7,437 nt of DNA from NCBI GenBank assembly GCA_001789205.1, contig MFYT01000067.1, forward strand, positions 1 through 7,437, given 5' to 3'. The notes below the pieces were generated by a model. It saw only the letters and a list, made by a program, of their open reading frames with translations, was not told the DNA's origin and did not search any database. The DNA is from Candidatus Raymondbacteria bacterium RIFOXYA2_FULL_49_16 (GTDB lineage Bacteria > Fibrobacterota > OXYB2-FULL-49-7 > XYB2-FULL-49-35). A program made the translations under genes and the position numbers. Positions within the stretch are counted from its first letter, which is position 1; each line of letters opens with the position of its first letter. Of this stretch, positions 1,340-7,281 are shown piece by piece.

Positions 1340-1531
1340 TTATTGGTCTTCATTCTTGTAAACATTTTCTATGCCCAAGCTTTTTAGCTTCTGATGTAAA
1401 AACTGCCTTGCAAGATCAAGCCGCTCTGCGGTTCGGGCTATGTTTCCTTTACATTCACCTAATACCCGCGCGATATAGCCGCGTTCAAATTCCTGGCGCG
1501 CTTCTTTGAGTGTCCGTGAGATATCCAGGGA
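1340..1531 (-). pseudogene. C-terminal Fis-type HTH fragment of an NtrX/NtrC-like response regulator
   Basis: About 63 codons ending at TAA (1340-1342) encode the DNA-binding tail of an NtrC-family regulator. The sequence LKEARQEFERGYIARVL, then GNIARTAERLDLARQFLHQ and KLKSLGI, matches the layout of the NtrX-type Fis/HTH_8 domain: a dimerisation helix followed by a helix-turn-helix. The receiver and AAA+ domains are absent. The frame extends on to a TTG at 1573, but upstream of about 1531 it is antisense to the SUMF1-like fragment and has no family resemblance, so that start is not credible. It is not the missing end of the large regulator at 3306-5867, which has its own C-terminus. I read it as a remnant of a separate regulator cut at a breakpoint; expression is unlikely unless something reads in. 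Confidence 0.75.
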
Positions 1532-1532
1532 T

Positions 1533-1886
1533 GGCGCTACCACTCCATATTTCTGGGGAAGTGACACAACCAATGCCTCAATATATGCTTGGTATGAGTA
1601 TACGCCTCATACAGGTGCCCTGAAGCAGCCTAATTCTTTTGGTCTCTATGACATGATTGGCAATGTTTCTGAATGGTGCCAGGATTGGTACGATCAGGAT
1701 TATTATTCTGTTTCGCCAGTCTTCAATCCTTGGGGACCCGGCAGCAGTGCATTAAACTATCGGGTTGTTCGCGGAGATTGTTGGGAAGGAGAAGAAATAG
1801 TATTACGAACCTCTGTGCGATCTTTTTTTGGACCGGGCCTATCCAACAACCTAGTCGGTTTCCGCTGTGTCCGGCCAATCAGGTGA
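1533..1886 (+). pseudogene. SUMF1/FGE-sulfatase-fold C-terminal fragment, N-terminus missing
   Basis: The plus frame encodes the C-terminal part of a formylglycine-generating-enzyme-fold (SUMF1) domain. TTPYFWGSD is followed by NSFGLYDMIGNVSEWCQDWY, then NPWGPGSS, YRVVRGDCW and finally VGFRCVR before TGA at 1884-1886. A complete domain is usually more than 200 residues, and here the N-terminal half is gone. The only start in frame is a TTG at 1506, lying antisense in the HTH fragment without a ribosome site. True FGEs carry two catalytic cysteines between the RGGS motif and the following CAAR-like motif. Here RGDCWEGEEIVLRTSVR lacks both at the expected spacing, so even the parent gene was probably a non-FGE member of the superfamily. 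It ends 1 nt before the stop of the convergent sulfatase. The pairing of a SUMF1 fold with a sulfatase may be historical or coincidental. Confidence 0.8.
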
Positions 1887-1887
1887 T

Positions 1888-3309
1888 TCAATTCATGACC
1901 GTGCGACGGTAATACCGGAGCAGTGGATCATTCATCGTTATCATCCATGAAAGCAACCGCTCCCTGAGGCGGTCCACGGCATCTTTATATAACGCCGAAC
2001 GTATCACATTGACGGTCTCGTGTTGGTCTTTCTTCAGATCATAAAATTCATCCTCAGCAACACAATTGAAAATGTACTTGAAGTCCCTGTCCCGTGCCAT
2101 GCGCTGCTCGTATGGCGCCTGATGGCCGTGTGATTCGCAAAAGACAGCGTCATCGTTCCTTAGGGGGGCCCTGCCTTCGCACAAAGGTAACAATGATATG
2201 GCGTCCAATCCATCAGGCGCCTTTGCGTCCATGACATCAAGAATGGCAGGCATAAGGTCAAAATGATACACAAAATTCTCGACAGAAACACCTGTCTTGA
2301 AACGTCCAGGCCTCCATGCAATTAACGGAATATGATAGATTGAATCATACATATACGGCCCTTTATCGCACACACCCTTGCTGCCGTCCATGCCACCATG
2401 GTCTGTTGTGCAAAATATGCAGGTATCTTTAAGCAGGCCCAGCGTGTCGCAGGCTTTCATGACCCTGCCTATCTGATCGTCGATGAACGTGGTAAATCCA
2501 TACTGCAGGGCCTGGAGCCGCTGCCACTCTTTGCGGGTAAAATCCTGCACCCCCCAGTAATTCCGGTATTCGCGCACCATCCGCGGTTTGTCGTCAGCCC
2601 GGTCATCAATATCCGGCCAAAGCTCGATCGACGATGGGTCGTACATGGAAAAGTACGGTTCTGGTATGCAGAAAGGAAGGTGCGGCCCCCAGAAGTCAAG
2701 ACGAATGTGAAACTGCCGTGCTTTTTTTGCGCATTGCTCCAACGCCTCAATCGCGCGTTCTGCAAGGTAGTATGTCGTCGTTGATTCAACGGGACCGTCT
2801 TCAAGGCCCGCAAGAAGGGCCCCTGCTGAACCGTTTTTGAGGCGGGAATAAATGGCGTTTTTCATTTCGGGGGCTTTTAGGCCATGCGAAGAAAGATAGG
2901 CCGCATAATCGCCATGCTTCTCCGGCTGGCCGTATCCTGGAAAGAACGGCCCTTCAAATCCGCAATCAAAAGGAGAAAGGCTGGTGCCAACATGCCATTT
3001 ACCGATATGGTGCGCCTCAATGCCTGCGTCACGCAGGACAGTGCCGTAAGGAATGAATTTCCCCGTGAAATCCTTGCCGCCCGCCAGACCAGATTCTGAA
3101 TTTACGAGTATGCCGTTTTTCATTGGATATTTACCCGTAAGGAATGCCGCGCGCGCTGGCGCGCATATGCCTGAGCAGGTAAAGGCATTGGTGAACCGTA
3201 CGCCTTCAGCGGCAAGCTTGTCTATGACCGGCGTCCTGCATTGCGTGTTTCCATAGCACCCAAGTCCGTCAACGCGCTGCTGATCAACATGAAATAGAAT
3301 CGTATTCAT
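1888..3309 (-). CDS. Cys-type sulfatase, apparently cytoplasmic
   Basis: This 473-residue protein is a full-length member of the formylglycine-dependent sulfatase family (alkaline phosphatase superfamily). The N-terminal metal site is HVDQQRVDGLGCYGN. The FGly signature is CAPAR at 49-53, with Cys49 (codon 3163-3165) the residue to be oxidised to formylglycine. GKWHVG lies at 103-108, GPHLPF near 208-213 and TTDHGG (D303, H304) followed by DKGPY at 316-319, all expected active-site or metal-binding elements. The family hydrolyses sulfate esters, often on sugars or glycans. No signal peptide or lipobox is present, so the enzyme should act in the cytoplasm on imported or intracellular substrate. 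It overlaps the upstream regulator gene by 4 nt (ATGA) and has a strong ribosome site, so the two are co-expressed. No intact FGE is in the window, so maturation must come from elsewhere. The exact substrate cannot be read from sequence. Confidence 0.93.
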   Translation of the reverse strand: MNTILFHVDQQRVDGLGCYGNTQCRTPVIDKLAAEGVRFTNAFTCSGICAPARAAFLTGKYPMKNGILVNSESGLAGGKDFTGKFIPYGTVLRDAGIEAHHIGKWHVGTSLSPFDCGFEGPFFPGYGQPEKHGDYAAYLSSHGLKAPEMKNAIYSRLKNGSAGALLAGLEDGPVESTTTYYLAERAIEALEQCAKKARQFHIRLDFWGPHLPFCIPEPYFSMYDPSSIELWPDIDDRADDKPRMVREYRNYWGVQDFTRKEWQRLQALQYGFTTFIDDQIGRVMKACDTLGLLKDTCIFCTTDHGGMDGSKGVCDKGPYMYDSIYHIPLIAWRPGRFKTGVSVENFVYHFDLMPAILDVMDAKAPDGLDAISLLPLCEGRAPLRNDDAVFCESHGHQAPYEQRMARDRDFKYIFNCVAEDEFYDLKKDQHETVNVIRSALYKDAVDRLRERLLSWMITMNDPLLRYYRRTVMN

Positions 3310-5867
3310 ACAGAGGCCTCCTTATTTTTATCCCCGCCAGTTTTCACCGGTTCTCCAATGGTATACCAGGCCGATTTGCCTTTTTTCCTTTTTGTCACAA
3401 TAAAATGATTCGCGATGCTTCCCAGCGCCCTTTTCGCTGTTGGGAAGGAGACCTCAAGGAGTGCCATCACGTCGTTGATCGTGAATTCCCTGCCCTTGAA
3501 CCCGTCCGCTATGGCGTACCAGAGCACATCTGCCGTTATGTCATGCTTCCGCGCATACTGGACCACCGAAGAGCTGGAAATGTTGAAATGCCTCGCTATC
3601 CTCGATGCCTTACCATGGAATGCGCAATATGCCGTCCGAAACACATCCTTGTCACGGTACGAACCCATGGCGCCTTCACCATTGCCCGCGCTTCCTTCGT
3701 CTGGAGCGGGAACAACCGCGTTCCGCTTCCTCAGATACAGGGGAAAGTCCTGCAATGATATCTTTGTCCCATGTTTGAGAATGACAATTTCCTCAATAAT
3801 GTTTTTCATCTCGCGCACATTGCCGGGCCAATTGTAGTGCATGAGGAAAGGGAGCGCGTCATTGTCAATGCGCGGCACCGGCGCTTTGTTTATCCGGCAC
3901 GCCTCATGCAACAGGCTCTCGAAGATCGGGTAAATATCCTCCCTACGCTCGCGCAAGGGCGGAATGCGGATGGAGATGACCTTGAGACGGTAATAGAGGT
4001 CCGCCCTGAACGTTCCCTCTGCAACCATCTTTTCCAGGTCCGCGTTCGTGGCCGCGATTATCCTGACATCCGCTTTAATGGGCTCAGTGCCGCCCACGCG
4101 CTCAAACTCCCTGTCATTCAGAAACCTAAGAAGTTTGGCCTGGACTTCCATTGAAAGGTTGCCGATCTCGTCCATAAACAGTGTCCCAGCGTCCGCTGTC
4201 TCGAACTTTCCCTTTTTCAGCGCGATTGCGCCGGTGAAGGCGCCTTTTTCATGGCCGAACAGCTCACTTTCAATGAGATTGTACGGCAATGCGGCGCAAT
4301 CAACCTTTACAAAAGGCTTGCCGGGCGAACCTTGGCAATGGATCGCTTGCGCGACAAGGTCCTTGCCCGTGCCGGTCTCCCCGGTGATAAAGATTGAAGC
4401 CCGTGCGGGCGCGACTGTACGGATGGTCGTAATAAGGTCTTCCGTTTCCTGGCTCTTGCCGAATATGCCGTGGAAACCGGCGCTTTTTCCTTTGATGTCC
4501 AACTGAAGGTGCTCAAGCTTTATTTTATATTCTTTCAGCGTCTCTTCAGCCTTGGCCAGTTCCGTAAGTTCCTTAAAACACGCTATTTGTTTCGGCTCAC
4601 TCCAATATTCATCCGGAAACAAGGTAAACTCGAAAAAACGCGATGGCGAGTTTTTAAAACGCACCAGCTGTCTGAATTCCTTTGTTTTGTCTGGATCAAA
4701 CGATGTTGTCTTCCGGTATATCTTGATATTGGTAATGGTTTCCCTGGTCCTGCTGATAAAGCCTGCCCTATTGTGCCGTTCTGGCGAGTACATTGGGACT
4801 ATGTCCATGTACACAAGCGACCTCTCGTCTCCGGAATACACCATGATGCAATGGCCTCGTTTTTCGATAATCAACCGGTTGTTGGCTGGTAATTTCTCGG
4901 TTATTGCGGCTCGCAGGGCATTTCTTTTTATCGCAATGCACCGTTTTCCCTTAACATTGGAAAAATGGGCAATATAGCCTGATTCTTCAGGCGACAAGTC
5001 GAATTCTTCTGACCCGCACAAGATGATCCCTCCGTTACTTTCCGCGAAAGTAGCTTCGATCCTAATGTCATTGTTGAAGAAGTCAACATCCATGTCCATG
5101 AGAAAAAACCCATAGGGCAATTGTTTGCCCCGCATGAATTTCAAGGCATTGGGGCTGGCTTTCCAGCAGTTCGAATACCTTGTTGAAAATTCCTTGATCG
5201 CGCTGGCGCTGGAATCAAAGAGCAGTGTCCAATTGTTCGAAGACGCCGCAAGCCCCTTTTCCGTATACCCTTCAAAGGCGGCCTTTGCCTTCTTCCATTT
5301 TATATAATCATCCTCGTTTATATACTCATGGAGCTTGGTACCGCGAATAGAATAGTTGCCGGCTATTGCGCTGCACCTGCGGTGCATGGCTTCATTGGTT
5401 TCCAGTATGGTCATGTCGTCATCAAGGGTCGCATACAGATCCGTGTTGTATTTTTCGTACCGTATGTTTTCATTGGTAACAAAGGAGACCGCGTGTAATT
5501 TAAAATCCATAAAGACGGAACTTTCCGCAAAGCAGGCGGCCCGTTCTTCCATGAATGAAGTCTTTTCAAGCCCGAAGGTCCGATCATTTATCCGGTCTGG
5601 CACGGTGTTCAGTTTGCAATAGACTGTTTTGCCCCGGTCGAAAAGGGTCTTTTTTATCAGATTGCGCAATGGTTTTCCCCTCACAGCATCCAGCTGGTGC
5701 CCGGTCCACTGGGAAAATGAGCTTGACATCCATATGACTGAGCCTGACAAATCTGTTGCTAGATACGCAATAGGGACGTTGCCCTGGAAAGGCAGGTTGT
5801 TTGGCGTCTCCTTGGGCGGATCGAGGATGCTTAGAAAGCCACTCTTAAGGAATTGTTTAAACGTCAT
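3306..5867 (-). CDS. Sigma-54 enhancer-binding regulator with PAS and concanavalin-like sensor region
   Basis: This 853-residue activator remodels sigma-54 RNA polymerase. A PAS-like domain lies at about 30-135. A second PAS begins at about 140-205 (LYATLDDDMTILETNEAM) and appears to resume at about 395-445 (FFEFTLF, then KELTELAKAEETLKEY). Between them, about 208-392, sits a beta-rich segment resembling LamG/DUF1080 jelly rolls (NNDIRIEATF, GGIILCG, AGFISRTRETITNIKIYR). The AAA+ motor (466-700) is complete: Walker A GETGTGKD 496-503, GAFTGA 542-547, Walker B FMDEIG with D566/E567, FRADLYYRL 620-628 and WPGNVRE 680-686. There is no receiver domain, so control is probably by ligand. The C-terminus has a divergent Fis-like HTH (740-777) and a second winged-helix-like HTH (790-837, wing around KRKKGKSAWYTI). 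The frame is open upstream of the ATG at 5867 but holds no other usual start. The sulfatase gene follows in the same operon. The motor call is firm; the jelly-roll call and ligand are inference. Confidence 0.93.
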   Translation of the reverse strand: MTFKQFLKSGFLSILDPPKETPNNLPFQGNVPIAYLATDLSGSVIWMSSSFSQWTGHQLDAVRGKPLRNLIKKTLFDRGKTVYCKLNTVPDRINDRTFGLEKTSFMEERAACFAESSVFMDFKLHAVSFVTNENIRYEKYNTDLYATLDDDMTILETNEAMHRRCSAIAGNYSIRGTKLHEYINEDDYIKWKKAKAAFEGYTEKGLAASSNNWTLLFDSSASAIKEFSTRYSNCWKASPNALKFMRGKQLPYGFFLMDMDVDFFNNDIRIEATFAESNGGIILCGSEEFDLSPEESGYIAHFSNVKGKRCIAIKRNALRAAITEKLPANNRLIIEKRGHCIMVYSGDERSLVYMDIVPMYSPERHNRAGFISRTRETITNIKIYRKTTSFDPDKTKEFRQLVRFKNSPSRFFEFTLFPDEYWSEPKQIACFKELTELAKAEETLKEYKIKLEHLQLDIKGKSAGFHGIFGKSQETEDLITTIRTVAPARASIFITGETGTGKDLVAQAIHCQGSPGKPFVKVDCAALPYNLIESELFGHEKGAFTGAIALKKGKFETADAGTLFMDEIGNLSMEVQAKLLRFLNDREFERVGGTEPIKADVRIIAATNADLEKMVAEGTFRADLYYRLKVISIRIPPLRERREDIYPIFESLLHEACRINKAPVPRIDNDALPFLMHYNWPGNVREMKNIIEEIVILKHGTKISLQDFPLYLRKRNAVVPAPDEGSAGNGEGAMGSYRDKDVFRTAYCAFHGKASRIARHFNISSSSVVQYARKHDITADVLWYAIADGFKGREFTINDVMALLEVSFPTAKRALGSIANHFIVTKRKKGKSAWYTIGEPVKTGGDKNKEASV
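3317..3323 (-). promoter_or_regulatory. Strong ribosome binding site of the sulfatase, inside the end of the regulator gene
   Basis: AAGGAGG on the minus strand, 7 nt before the sulfatase ATG, is close to the ideal anti-16S match. It lies within the last codons of the upstream regulator, whose TGA overlaps the ATG as ATGA. This supports the chosen start. It implies that sulfatase translation is coupled to, but not wholly dependent on, regulator translation. The regulator's own start has only a weak site (AAGTGA), so the enzyme may be made in excess of the regulator. Confidence 0.85.
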
Positions 5868-6025: not shown

Positions 6026-6076
6026 TTTTGCTGTTTTAAAAATAGGCAGAGATTTTGCATTAATAACTAAAAAAAC

Positions 6077-6241
6077 ATGGAAAACAGGAAATTGAGAGAA
6101 TTGTTGAAAAAATACGAGATGCTTGTTGAGAAAGATATCAACCCGGAAAACATGACAAGTTTTGTCGAATATCAGAAAACAGTCGAACAACTTGGGCAAA
6201 AAATAAAAAGCATGCTGGCCGCAGATAGCGGTGTCTACTAA
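6077..6241 (+). CDS. Small 54-residue charged helical protein of unknown function
   Basis: An ATG at 6077, the first possible start after an in-frame TAA at 6068-6070, opens 54 codons to TAA at 6239-6241. I do not recognise the protein. It is rich in Lys and Glu, starts MENRKLRELLKKYEMLVEK, and continues with SFVEYQKTVEQLGQKIKSML. The spacing of Leu, Val and Met suggests two amphipathic helices, possibly a short coiled coil, with an NPENM turn between. It has no signal peptide or membrane segment, so it is probably cytoplasmic. The stop is 23 nt before the next start, so it should be the first gene of the plus-strand operon. No convincing Shine-Dalgarno is visible; the start is preceded by an A-rich stretch. 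The codon use and lack of low complexity argue for a real gene. A longer antisense frame (5993-6382) crosses it, but that frame is antisense to the next gene's signal peptide and is judged spurious. Confidence 0.6.
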   Translation: MENRKLRELLKKYEMLVEKDINPENMTSFVEYQKTVEQLGQKIKSMLAADSGVY

Positions 6242-6264: not shown

Positions 6265-7281
6265 ATGAGAAAACTATTATCAACCATCCTGGTCTTGGGG
6301 GCTGTTTTCCAGGCGTTTGGCCAAAAAGACACGGTACAAGTGTACAAAATCGACGCAACCGTGGCCCATGGAATTCCCACAATGGACGGGGACCTCGCTG
6401 ATTGGGACGAGGGCTACAATGTGGGCGGTTTCACTTCAGAGGACAATATCTACTATGTCTCGGGCGGCACAATGGACAGCTGGGACGGCTTTTCCGTTGA
6501 TTATCAGGCCAGCATGTATCTTGCCCACGATGAAACATATCTCTACATTGGGTGGCGTACCCTGGCCGATGACTATGTCAAATCAGGCGTTAACGACCGG
6601 ACCGCATGCGATGATATGAAAATATGCTTTGGCGCAAAAGACGACCTTTTAAAACTCTTCAACAATTCGGTGAGCGATTCCAATCCAATATGCCTGAGCT
6701 ATCAATATGACCATTTGGCCGGCGTTCGCATGGGCGTTCATCCTGATCTGCCTGTGTATGAGTTACGGCTAAGAAAAGATGAGTTGCGGTTTTACTTCCC
6801 CACGGTGAATCCACCATTTGCGCTTGTTAGCATTGGCACAGAAGATATAGATACACCCGAGGATGGAGACAACTATCTTGGTCTTAAAGCCAAATATACC
6901 GGTACGAAAACAGACGGGGCCACAAATCCATGGGACAACAACGCGAATTATCCCATTGTTCAGTTTTTGGATGAATACGCTCCAGGAGTGAACATTGACG
7001 TGTCAAAAAACGCTTCGAGCTGCCAGGGTTCCATGGTTGCGTCACCAAATCCTTTCAACCCGGCAACATGCATCAGCTACAACGTGAAAGGCGCGGGAAG
7101 CATCGGGCTTTACTCAATTGCGGGAAAACTCATTAGAACTTTTCCAGGTTTGATTGGCAAAGGCGCTGTTGCATGGGACGGGAAAGATTATTCCGGCAAC
7201 ATAATGCCAGCCGGTGTTTATATCGCAAGGCTCAATTCGAATGGAAGTGTGTATAGTCTGAAGCTCTCATTATTAAAGTAA
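6265..7281 (+). CDS. Secreted CBM9/DOMON-like protein with T9SS C-terminal sorting domain
   Basis: This 338-residue protein begins with a classical signal peptide (MRKLLSTILVLGAVFQAFG, cleavage near Gln20). AAAGGGG 7 nt before the ATG fixes the start. Residues about 35-235 resemble a carbohydrate-binding module family 9/DOMON-type beta sandwich: MDGDLADWDEG at 40-50, then SMYLAHDETYLYIGW at 83-97 and ADDYVKSG, with aromatic residues that could stack on sugar. No catalytic domain is visible. Residues about 257-338 are a FlgD-like T9SS type-A sorting domain (SPNPFNPATCISY, GLYSIAGKLIRTF, WDGKDYSGN, GVYIARL, ending in LLK). In FCB bacteria that domain directs export across the outer membrane and surface attachment or release. 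It is the second gene of a probable operon, 23 nt after the 54-aa gene and 24 nt before the next. A surface carbohydrate-binding role is inferred; some CBM9-like domains bind other ligands. Confidence 0.85.
   Translation: MRKLLSTILVLGAVFQAFGQKDTVQVYKIDATVAHGIPTMDGDLADWDEGYNVGGFTSEDNIYYVSGGTMDSWDGFSVDYQASMYLAHDETYLYIGWRTLADDYVKSGVNDRTACDDMKICFGAKDDLLKLFNNSVSDSNPICLSYQYDHLAGVRMGVHPDLPVYELRLRKDELRFYFPTVNPPFALVSIGTEDIDTPEDGDNYLGLKAKYTGTKTDGATNPWDNNANYPIVQFLDEYAPGVNIDVSKNASSCQGSMVASPNPFNPATCISYNVKGAGSIGLYSIAGKLIRTFPGLIGKGAVAWDGKDYSGNIMPAGVYIARLNSNGSVYSLKLSLLK

Follow-up and report, generated by a model that had tools for sequence, protein, structure and literature searches.

Sensing through PAS domains, which are among the commonest sensors, is well established for sigma-54 activators. 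In PAS-domain activators such as GabR and PrdR, a PAS sensor is joined by a coiled exit helix to an AAA+ domain with a GAFTGA motif and to a C-terminal DNA-binding region, and the protein exerts one-component control of neighboring genes. Jelly rolls of the ConA type are known from other settings. Members of PF06439 (3-keto-disaccharide hydrolase, formerly DUF1080) and of CBM66, the levan- or fructan-binding module of the SacC levanase (a binding module rather than an enzyme), are secreted enzymes or binding modules. PknD-type Ser/Thr kinases, found in Fibrobacterota and represented in NCBIfam by chlamydial PknD, carry a jelly roll on a signalling protein, where it is free-standing beyond a membrane segment. 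Two-component and membrane one-component regulators with periplasmic sugar-sensing domains control degradation genes in response to glycans.

We analyzed a stretch of 7,437 nucleotides (the window; contig C67 of a 5.43-Mb Fibrobacterota assembly) that encodes an 853-aa regulator with features of all these systems. It has the sensor, exit helix, motor and DNA-binding order of the PAS-domain sigma-54 activators and, like them, appears to be a one-component regulator of adjacent genes. Unlike them, its second PAS domain (PAS2) is broken by a 176-residue jelly roll, and the sequence at its C-terminus looks unlike a plain Fis-type helix-turn-helix. The inserted domain resembles PF06439 and CBM66 in its ConA-like jelly roll, with homology traced through Fibrobacterota kinase domains, but it scores below the family cut-off and is found in the cytosol, within a PAS domain. 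It is homologous to the jelly roll of the PknD-type kinases, although there it stands free and here it is inserted. The purpose is probably shared with the periplasmic-sensor regulators, whereas here sensor and output are on one soluble protein. We know of no described PAS domain with a whole lectin-type fold inserted, and a limited search of the literature, covering CBM66 jelly rolls, interrupted PAS domains and enhancer proteins that bind sugars, found none and nothing directly relevant. The single parts are known; what seems to be undescribed is a lectin-type fold nested within a PAS domain and used 21-fold on three kinds of output.

The regulator gene (3306..5867, minus strand) is a genuine open reading frame, and positions 4692-5246, where a preliminary description had placed an insert, correspond to residues 208-392 of its product. 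An uninterrupted PAS-like region, PAS1 (residues ~29-135; 5463..5783, minus), lies at the N-terminus. Its match to PAS_4 is weak (E 0.0025 at residues 31-73), and paralogues score above cut-off in the same region (e.g., PAS_9 at 4.3e-8). PAS2 follows, its first half comprising strands A-B and helices C-F (residues ~137-206; 5250..5459, minus) and its second half strands G-H-I and the start of the exit helix (residues ~396-447; 4527..4682, minus). Between the halves is the jelly roll (residues ~211-386; 4710..5237, minus). The AAA+ sigma-54 interaction domain (residues 468-633; 3969..4466, minus; Sigma54_activat E 1.2e-67) contains GETGTGK, GAFTGA and DEIGN motifs, so the Walker A, Walker B and GAFTGA elements of a bacterial enhancer-binding protein are all present. 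It is followed by an AAA+ lid (residues 639-717; 3717..3953, minus; AAA_lid_14 E 1.6e-21) and a DNA-binding region with apparently two helix-turn-helix-like segments, whose approximate limits (3330..3614, minus) come from reading the sequence and alignment; HTH-type matches to this region are weak and occur in paralogues only. No transmembrane stretch was detected in the protein (maximum 19-residue hydropathy 1.03). Pfam returned no match between residues 75 and 465. The first lead to the family of the insert came from NCBIfam, in which the insert alone matches the PknD kinase model (E 6.9e-4). The PAS/jelly-roll architecture is well supported.

The insert is homologous to kinase domains. A profile of 13 inserts aligned with four kinase jelly rolls at Prob 98.5 and E 1.7e-15 over 144 columns (hhalign). 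In these Fibrobacterota kinases the homologous domain lies beyond the membrane segment and before the TPRs. All seven kinase domains tested match PF06439, two of them above the curated cut-off of 26.8 bits, and the best does so at 3.5e-9 across positions 4-186 of the 187-position profile. Only these homologous kinases pass the cut-off, which is reached by no regulator insert. PF06439 gave no match in the window protein and none in its own genome, other than a sub-threshold direct contact in one AraC-type copy on contig C3 (13.5 bits, the best of the regulator inserts). A profile of inserts and kinase domains retrieved CBM66 of the SacC levanase as the top three PDB sequence matches, weakly (E 0.014). 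Residues W213, D267, Y298 and D355 are conserved in nearly all copies and mostly also in the kinase domains; they may be structural in role. Ser/Thr kinases that resemble the PknD model and carry, outside the cytoplasm, a jelly roll of PF06439 type ahead of the TPRs occur across Fibrobacterota (L012, L022-L024, L049-L056 and L084 (G000:C7)).

Structure prediction is consistent with these relationships. An alignment with eight kinases put the window sequence out of register, and a four-kinase set that keeps the GY and IEK anchors was used. The resulting AF2 model of residues 209-387, built from an alignment that includes these kinase rows, is all-beta and of middling confidence (mean pLDDT 61.5, pTM 0.64). 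It is predicted to form the two-sheet beta sandwich of the ConA-like fold, with VIA Z values of 12-14 over 140-168 residues, and Foldseek agrees. The best VIA match is to levanase BT1760, in its C-terminal sandwich (Z 14.3), followed by 3-keto-glycoside eliminase 9fbe (13.0), DUF1080 structures (12-13), SPRY domains (~12 up to 12.9) and lectin domains of ERGIC-53 (~12). Because these values are so close, no single closest relative can be named. The predicted model and profile homology together give good support to a ConA-like jelly roll as the fold class. The preliminary description had read residues 208-392 as a beta-rich jelly roll of LamG/DUF1080 type and had proposed a fold search of this segment. 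The jelly roll is upheld by hhalign, PF06439 and AF2/VIA, with borders at ~211-386 (~176 residues), and the search indeed recovers levanase, DUF1080 and lectin sandwiches. The link to DUF1080 runs through the kinases and the predicted fold; LamG profiles do not match the insert, and the likeness to LamG is one of general fold only.

The division of PAS2 was assessed by comparing 21 joined-half sequences with an independent profile of 30 unrelated PAS_9 domains from the same genome (hhalign). The joined halves (~137-206 plus ~396-447) align end to end, with a score of 41.6 over 103 columns, whereas the first half alone scores 35.9 over 48 columns. When the second-half columns were shuffled, the joined score was 36.4 ± 0.7 and never exceeded 39.6 (n = 60). 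By itself, the second half reaches 12.6, compared with 7.1 ± 1.3 (maximum 10.9) for shuffled columns. A contiguous PAS2 was considered and rejected, as the uninterrupted sequence scores 36.9 over 47 columns and its alignment stops where the first half ends. Tests of single proteins against Pfam are suggestive, with a modest gain on joining: a phosphatase-type copy on contig C26 reaches 31.3 bits with PAS_9 when joined (cut-off 27), against 22.8 with its first half only, 23.2 with the uninterrupted sequence and 25.5 with the second half shuffled. At the place of the first half, PAS_8 is over cut-off in the C3 paralogue (30.0 bits), while the window protein itself is below it. A PDB search with 13 joined halves found weak PAS matches (E 0.12). 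The only model that spans both halves, a single-sequence AF2 prediction of residues 133-455, had a pLDDT of 37 and was discarded.

These comparisons support, at the level of profiles, a single PAS domain formed from residues 137-206 and 396-447. Since the joined halves align end to end with a PAS profile, the jelly roll is probably inserted into the loop that links helix F to strand G. Distances between copies correlate between both PAS2 halves and the insert (r 0.85-0.87), so the three segments appear to have been inherited together. The earlier proposal of a PAS domain split by the insert is therefore borne out by the joined score, which exceeds every shuffle. Its borders shift slightly, from ~140-205 to ~137-206 for the first half and from 395 to ~396 for the start of the closing strands, and its domain picture gains the further PAS-like region at 29-135. 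For this stretch, neither two complete PAS or GAF domains nor an absence of the jelly roll was found.

The whole module (PAS2 first half, insert, PAS2 second half) is present in 21 copies in the same Fibrobacterota genome, found with profiles that were widened stepwise; the preliminary description had suggested such a search for regulators of the same order, but had not foreseen the AraC and phosphatase outputs or the 21-fold expansion. Eight copies are sigma-54 activators, that is, the window protein and seven further proteins with the same domain order and a sigma-54 domain. Ten are AraC regulators and three are SpoIIE/RsbU-type (PP2C) phosphatases. Outputs were assigned by Pfam, or from their sequences for the remaining sigma-54-type copies and the AraC-type copy C26:41696-43366. 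No clear membrane segment is present in any of the 21 copies. No other complete module was found in 391 genomes (some of the same phylum, the rest of other phyla), in which only the jelly-roll kinases and two weak PAS fragments were detected. A scan of genome contigs that left out its own genome likewise gave no copy of the module, and it was not found in viral contigs. The relatives from named records are all Fibrobacterota, which places the host in this phylum.

Enzymes that break down glycans and esters are encoded around the copies. In the window, a sulfatase gene (1888..3309, minus; PF00884 E 8e-37) starts within the stop of the regulator gene, with an overlap of four bases (ATGA). Its product has no apparent signal peptide, which fits an enzyme that handles a sulfated substrate after import. 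A general linkage of the module to sulfatases was rejected, as the window copy alone has one; the 11 others among the 12 sulfatases of the genome adjoin no module copy. Beside the sulfatase, positions 1506-1886 (plus) match only the end (150-255) of the FGE-sulfatase model and look truncated. On the other side of the regulator gene, transcribed divergently, is a gene for a secreted protein (6265..7281, plus) with a C-terminal FlgD-Ig/T9SS-type sorting tail (FlgD_ig 6.2e-4; TIGR04183 22.7 bits against a cut-off of 23). This is the likely target gene of the regulator. A paralogue of the secreted protein (GQKDT..VYKIDATVA) is encoded at L038 ~18900, at a distance of 8 kb from the C23b copy, and has a small ORF and a sigma-54-like site of its own.

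Across the copies, neighbors with T9SS-type tails include secreted esterases, a GDSL lipase, a GH20 hexosaminidase, and LRR, LamG and CBM96-like proteins; an aldo-keto reductase and a GFO/IDH oxidoreductase are also present. The genome as a whole (G000) encodes a very large T9SS-type secreted set, with at least 150 genes, among 431 candidates, scored as having a Por_Secre_tail domain. Measured against these listed genes, 12 of the 21 copies have a tail gene no more than 6 kb away (P 4e-4 relative to genome coverage), compared with 3 of 19 other sigma-54 activators (Fisher P 0.008), the 6-kb limit being our choice. Two genes from the sigma-54-type copy on contig C2 is a membrane AraC regulator (L043:4581-6536, minus) with a signal peptide, a single membrane segment and, outside the cytoplasm, a long part rich in beta structure.

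RpoN is encoded in the genome. Facing the divergent operon of the window is a sigma-54-like -24/-12 site, TAGGCAGAGATTTTGCA (6043..6059, plus), identified as a consensus match, as are all sites described here. In the eight divergent intergenic regions of the sigma-54-type copies, six such sites in the right orientation were observed against 0.37 expected from shuffles, at a threshold (7.5) set during the analysis. A seventh appears once the start codon assigned to the C74 regulator is corrected, and seven of eight regions thus have a site scoring at least 7.7; the C108 region has only a degenerate one. Intergenic regions of the AraC- and PP2C-type copies, of smaller total length, contain none. 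The divergent gene that faces the sites usually encodes a secreted protein. The sigma-54-type copies may act at these putative sites before the divergent genes.

Directly after several of the sites is a small ORF of ~54-70 codons. That of the window (6077..6241, plus; 54 aa) belongs to a six-copy sequence family of the genome, with members of ~54-70 aa and the motif LLEEYK...QK.LEELGEKIK.M (the others are at L039, L041, L042, L040 ~8565 and L038 ~18680). All six are near sigma-54-type copies, each before a gene for a secreted protein and after a sigma-54-like site (degenerate in C108).

We consider there to be about an even chance that the protein is a soluble, cytosolic one-component sigma-54 activator that responds to an imported glycan fragment through PAS1 and the jelly-roll-split PAS2. 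The analysis shows the homology and fold class of the insert, a split PAS as judged from profiles, reuse of the module 21 times with three outputs, an intact sigma-54 motor, an encoded RpoN and sigma-54-like sites before the divergent gene. The jelly roll would bind carbohydrate, and a link from intracellular glycan sensing to putative sigma-54 control is plausible; it fits the sulfatase, the secreted esterases, the GDSL and GH20 proteins and the sigma-54-like sites. The jelly roll would hold a fragment of imported carbohydrate (in the window perhaps a sulfated sugar on which the overlapping cytosolic sulfatase acts), and this would shift the F-G loop and the adjoining PAS2 core. The PAS exit helix could relay the shift to the AAA+ ring (or, in other copies, to an AraC DNA-binding domain or a phosphatase). 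The ring would then remodel sigma-54 polymerase at the divergent promoter and switch on secreted degradation enzymes. What we infer are the nature of the ligand, the direction in which the response runs and promoter use.

The main rival is that the jelly roll binds protein, as an interaction or dimer scaffold similar to SPRY domains, with the signal entering through PAS1 or PAS2 or through a partner such as the small-ORF product. The ConA fold is used for protein binding too, as in SPRY domains, and these are among the best structural matches. A six-copy small protein family accompanies the regulators, and the module is shared by PP2C phosphatases, which often act in partner switching. However, sequence homology leads to the CBM66/DUF1080 family and not to SPRY, and the neighborhood encodes glycan- and ester-degrading enzymes; we consider a scaffold rather unlikely, though worth weighing. 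It is improbable that the insert acts, or once acted, as a 3-keto-glycoside hydrolase or hydratase, so that sensing would occur by turnover or trapping of a 3-keto sugar: its relatives are homologous to PF06439 and eliminase 9fbe is a structural match, but every regulator insert is below the PF06439 cut-off, and the closest PDB sequence match, CBM66, is a binding module. Marginally less probable still, and disfavoured, is a plain succession of domains, in which both PAS domains are complete, the jelly roll is separate and the split is an illusion of alignment. In its favor, residues 134-258 of the C26 copy score 31.2 bits contiguously with PF00989, and joining brings a modest gain in single-protein tests. 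Against it, no column shuffle reaches the score of the end-to-end alignment of the 21 joined sequences, and the first part of the insert is jelly roll in the homologous kinases.

Returning to a glycan-binding insert, we suggest, more tentatively than for the window regulator itself, a new class of cytosolic glycan receptor. In such a class, a lectin-type jelly roll in the PAS F-G loop would be used in 21 copies of one genome to drive sigma-54, AraC and phosphatase outputs. Each copy would recognize a different fragment of imported glycan and control a secreted-enzyme locus of its own. The consistent layout of the copies makes predictions of ligand and promoter testable. If the insert binds sugars, it would be a compact means of coupling the recognition of glycans inside the cell to three unrelated outputs. 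The 21-fold expansion would then help to explain how a Fibrobacterota lineage that degrades glycans apportions a large arsenal of secreted proteins. Reuse of this composite sensor on three kinds of output, with a putative glycan ligand, suggests an intracellular sensor of a new style.
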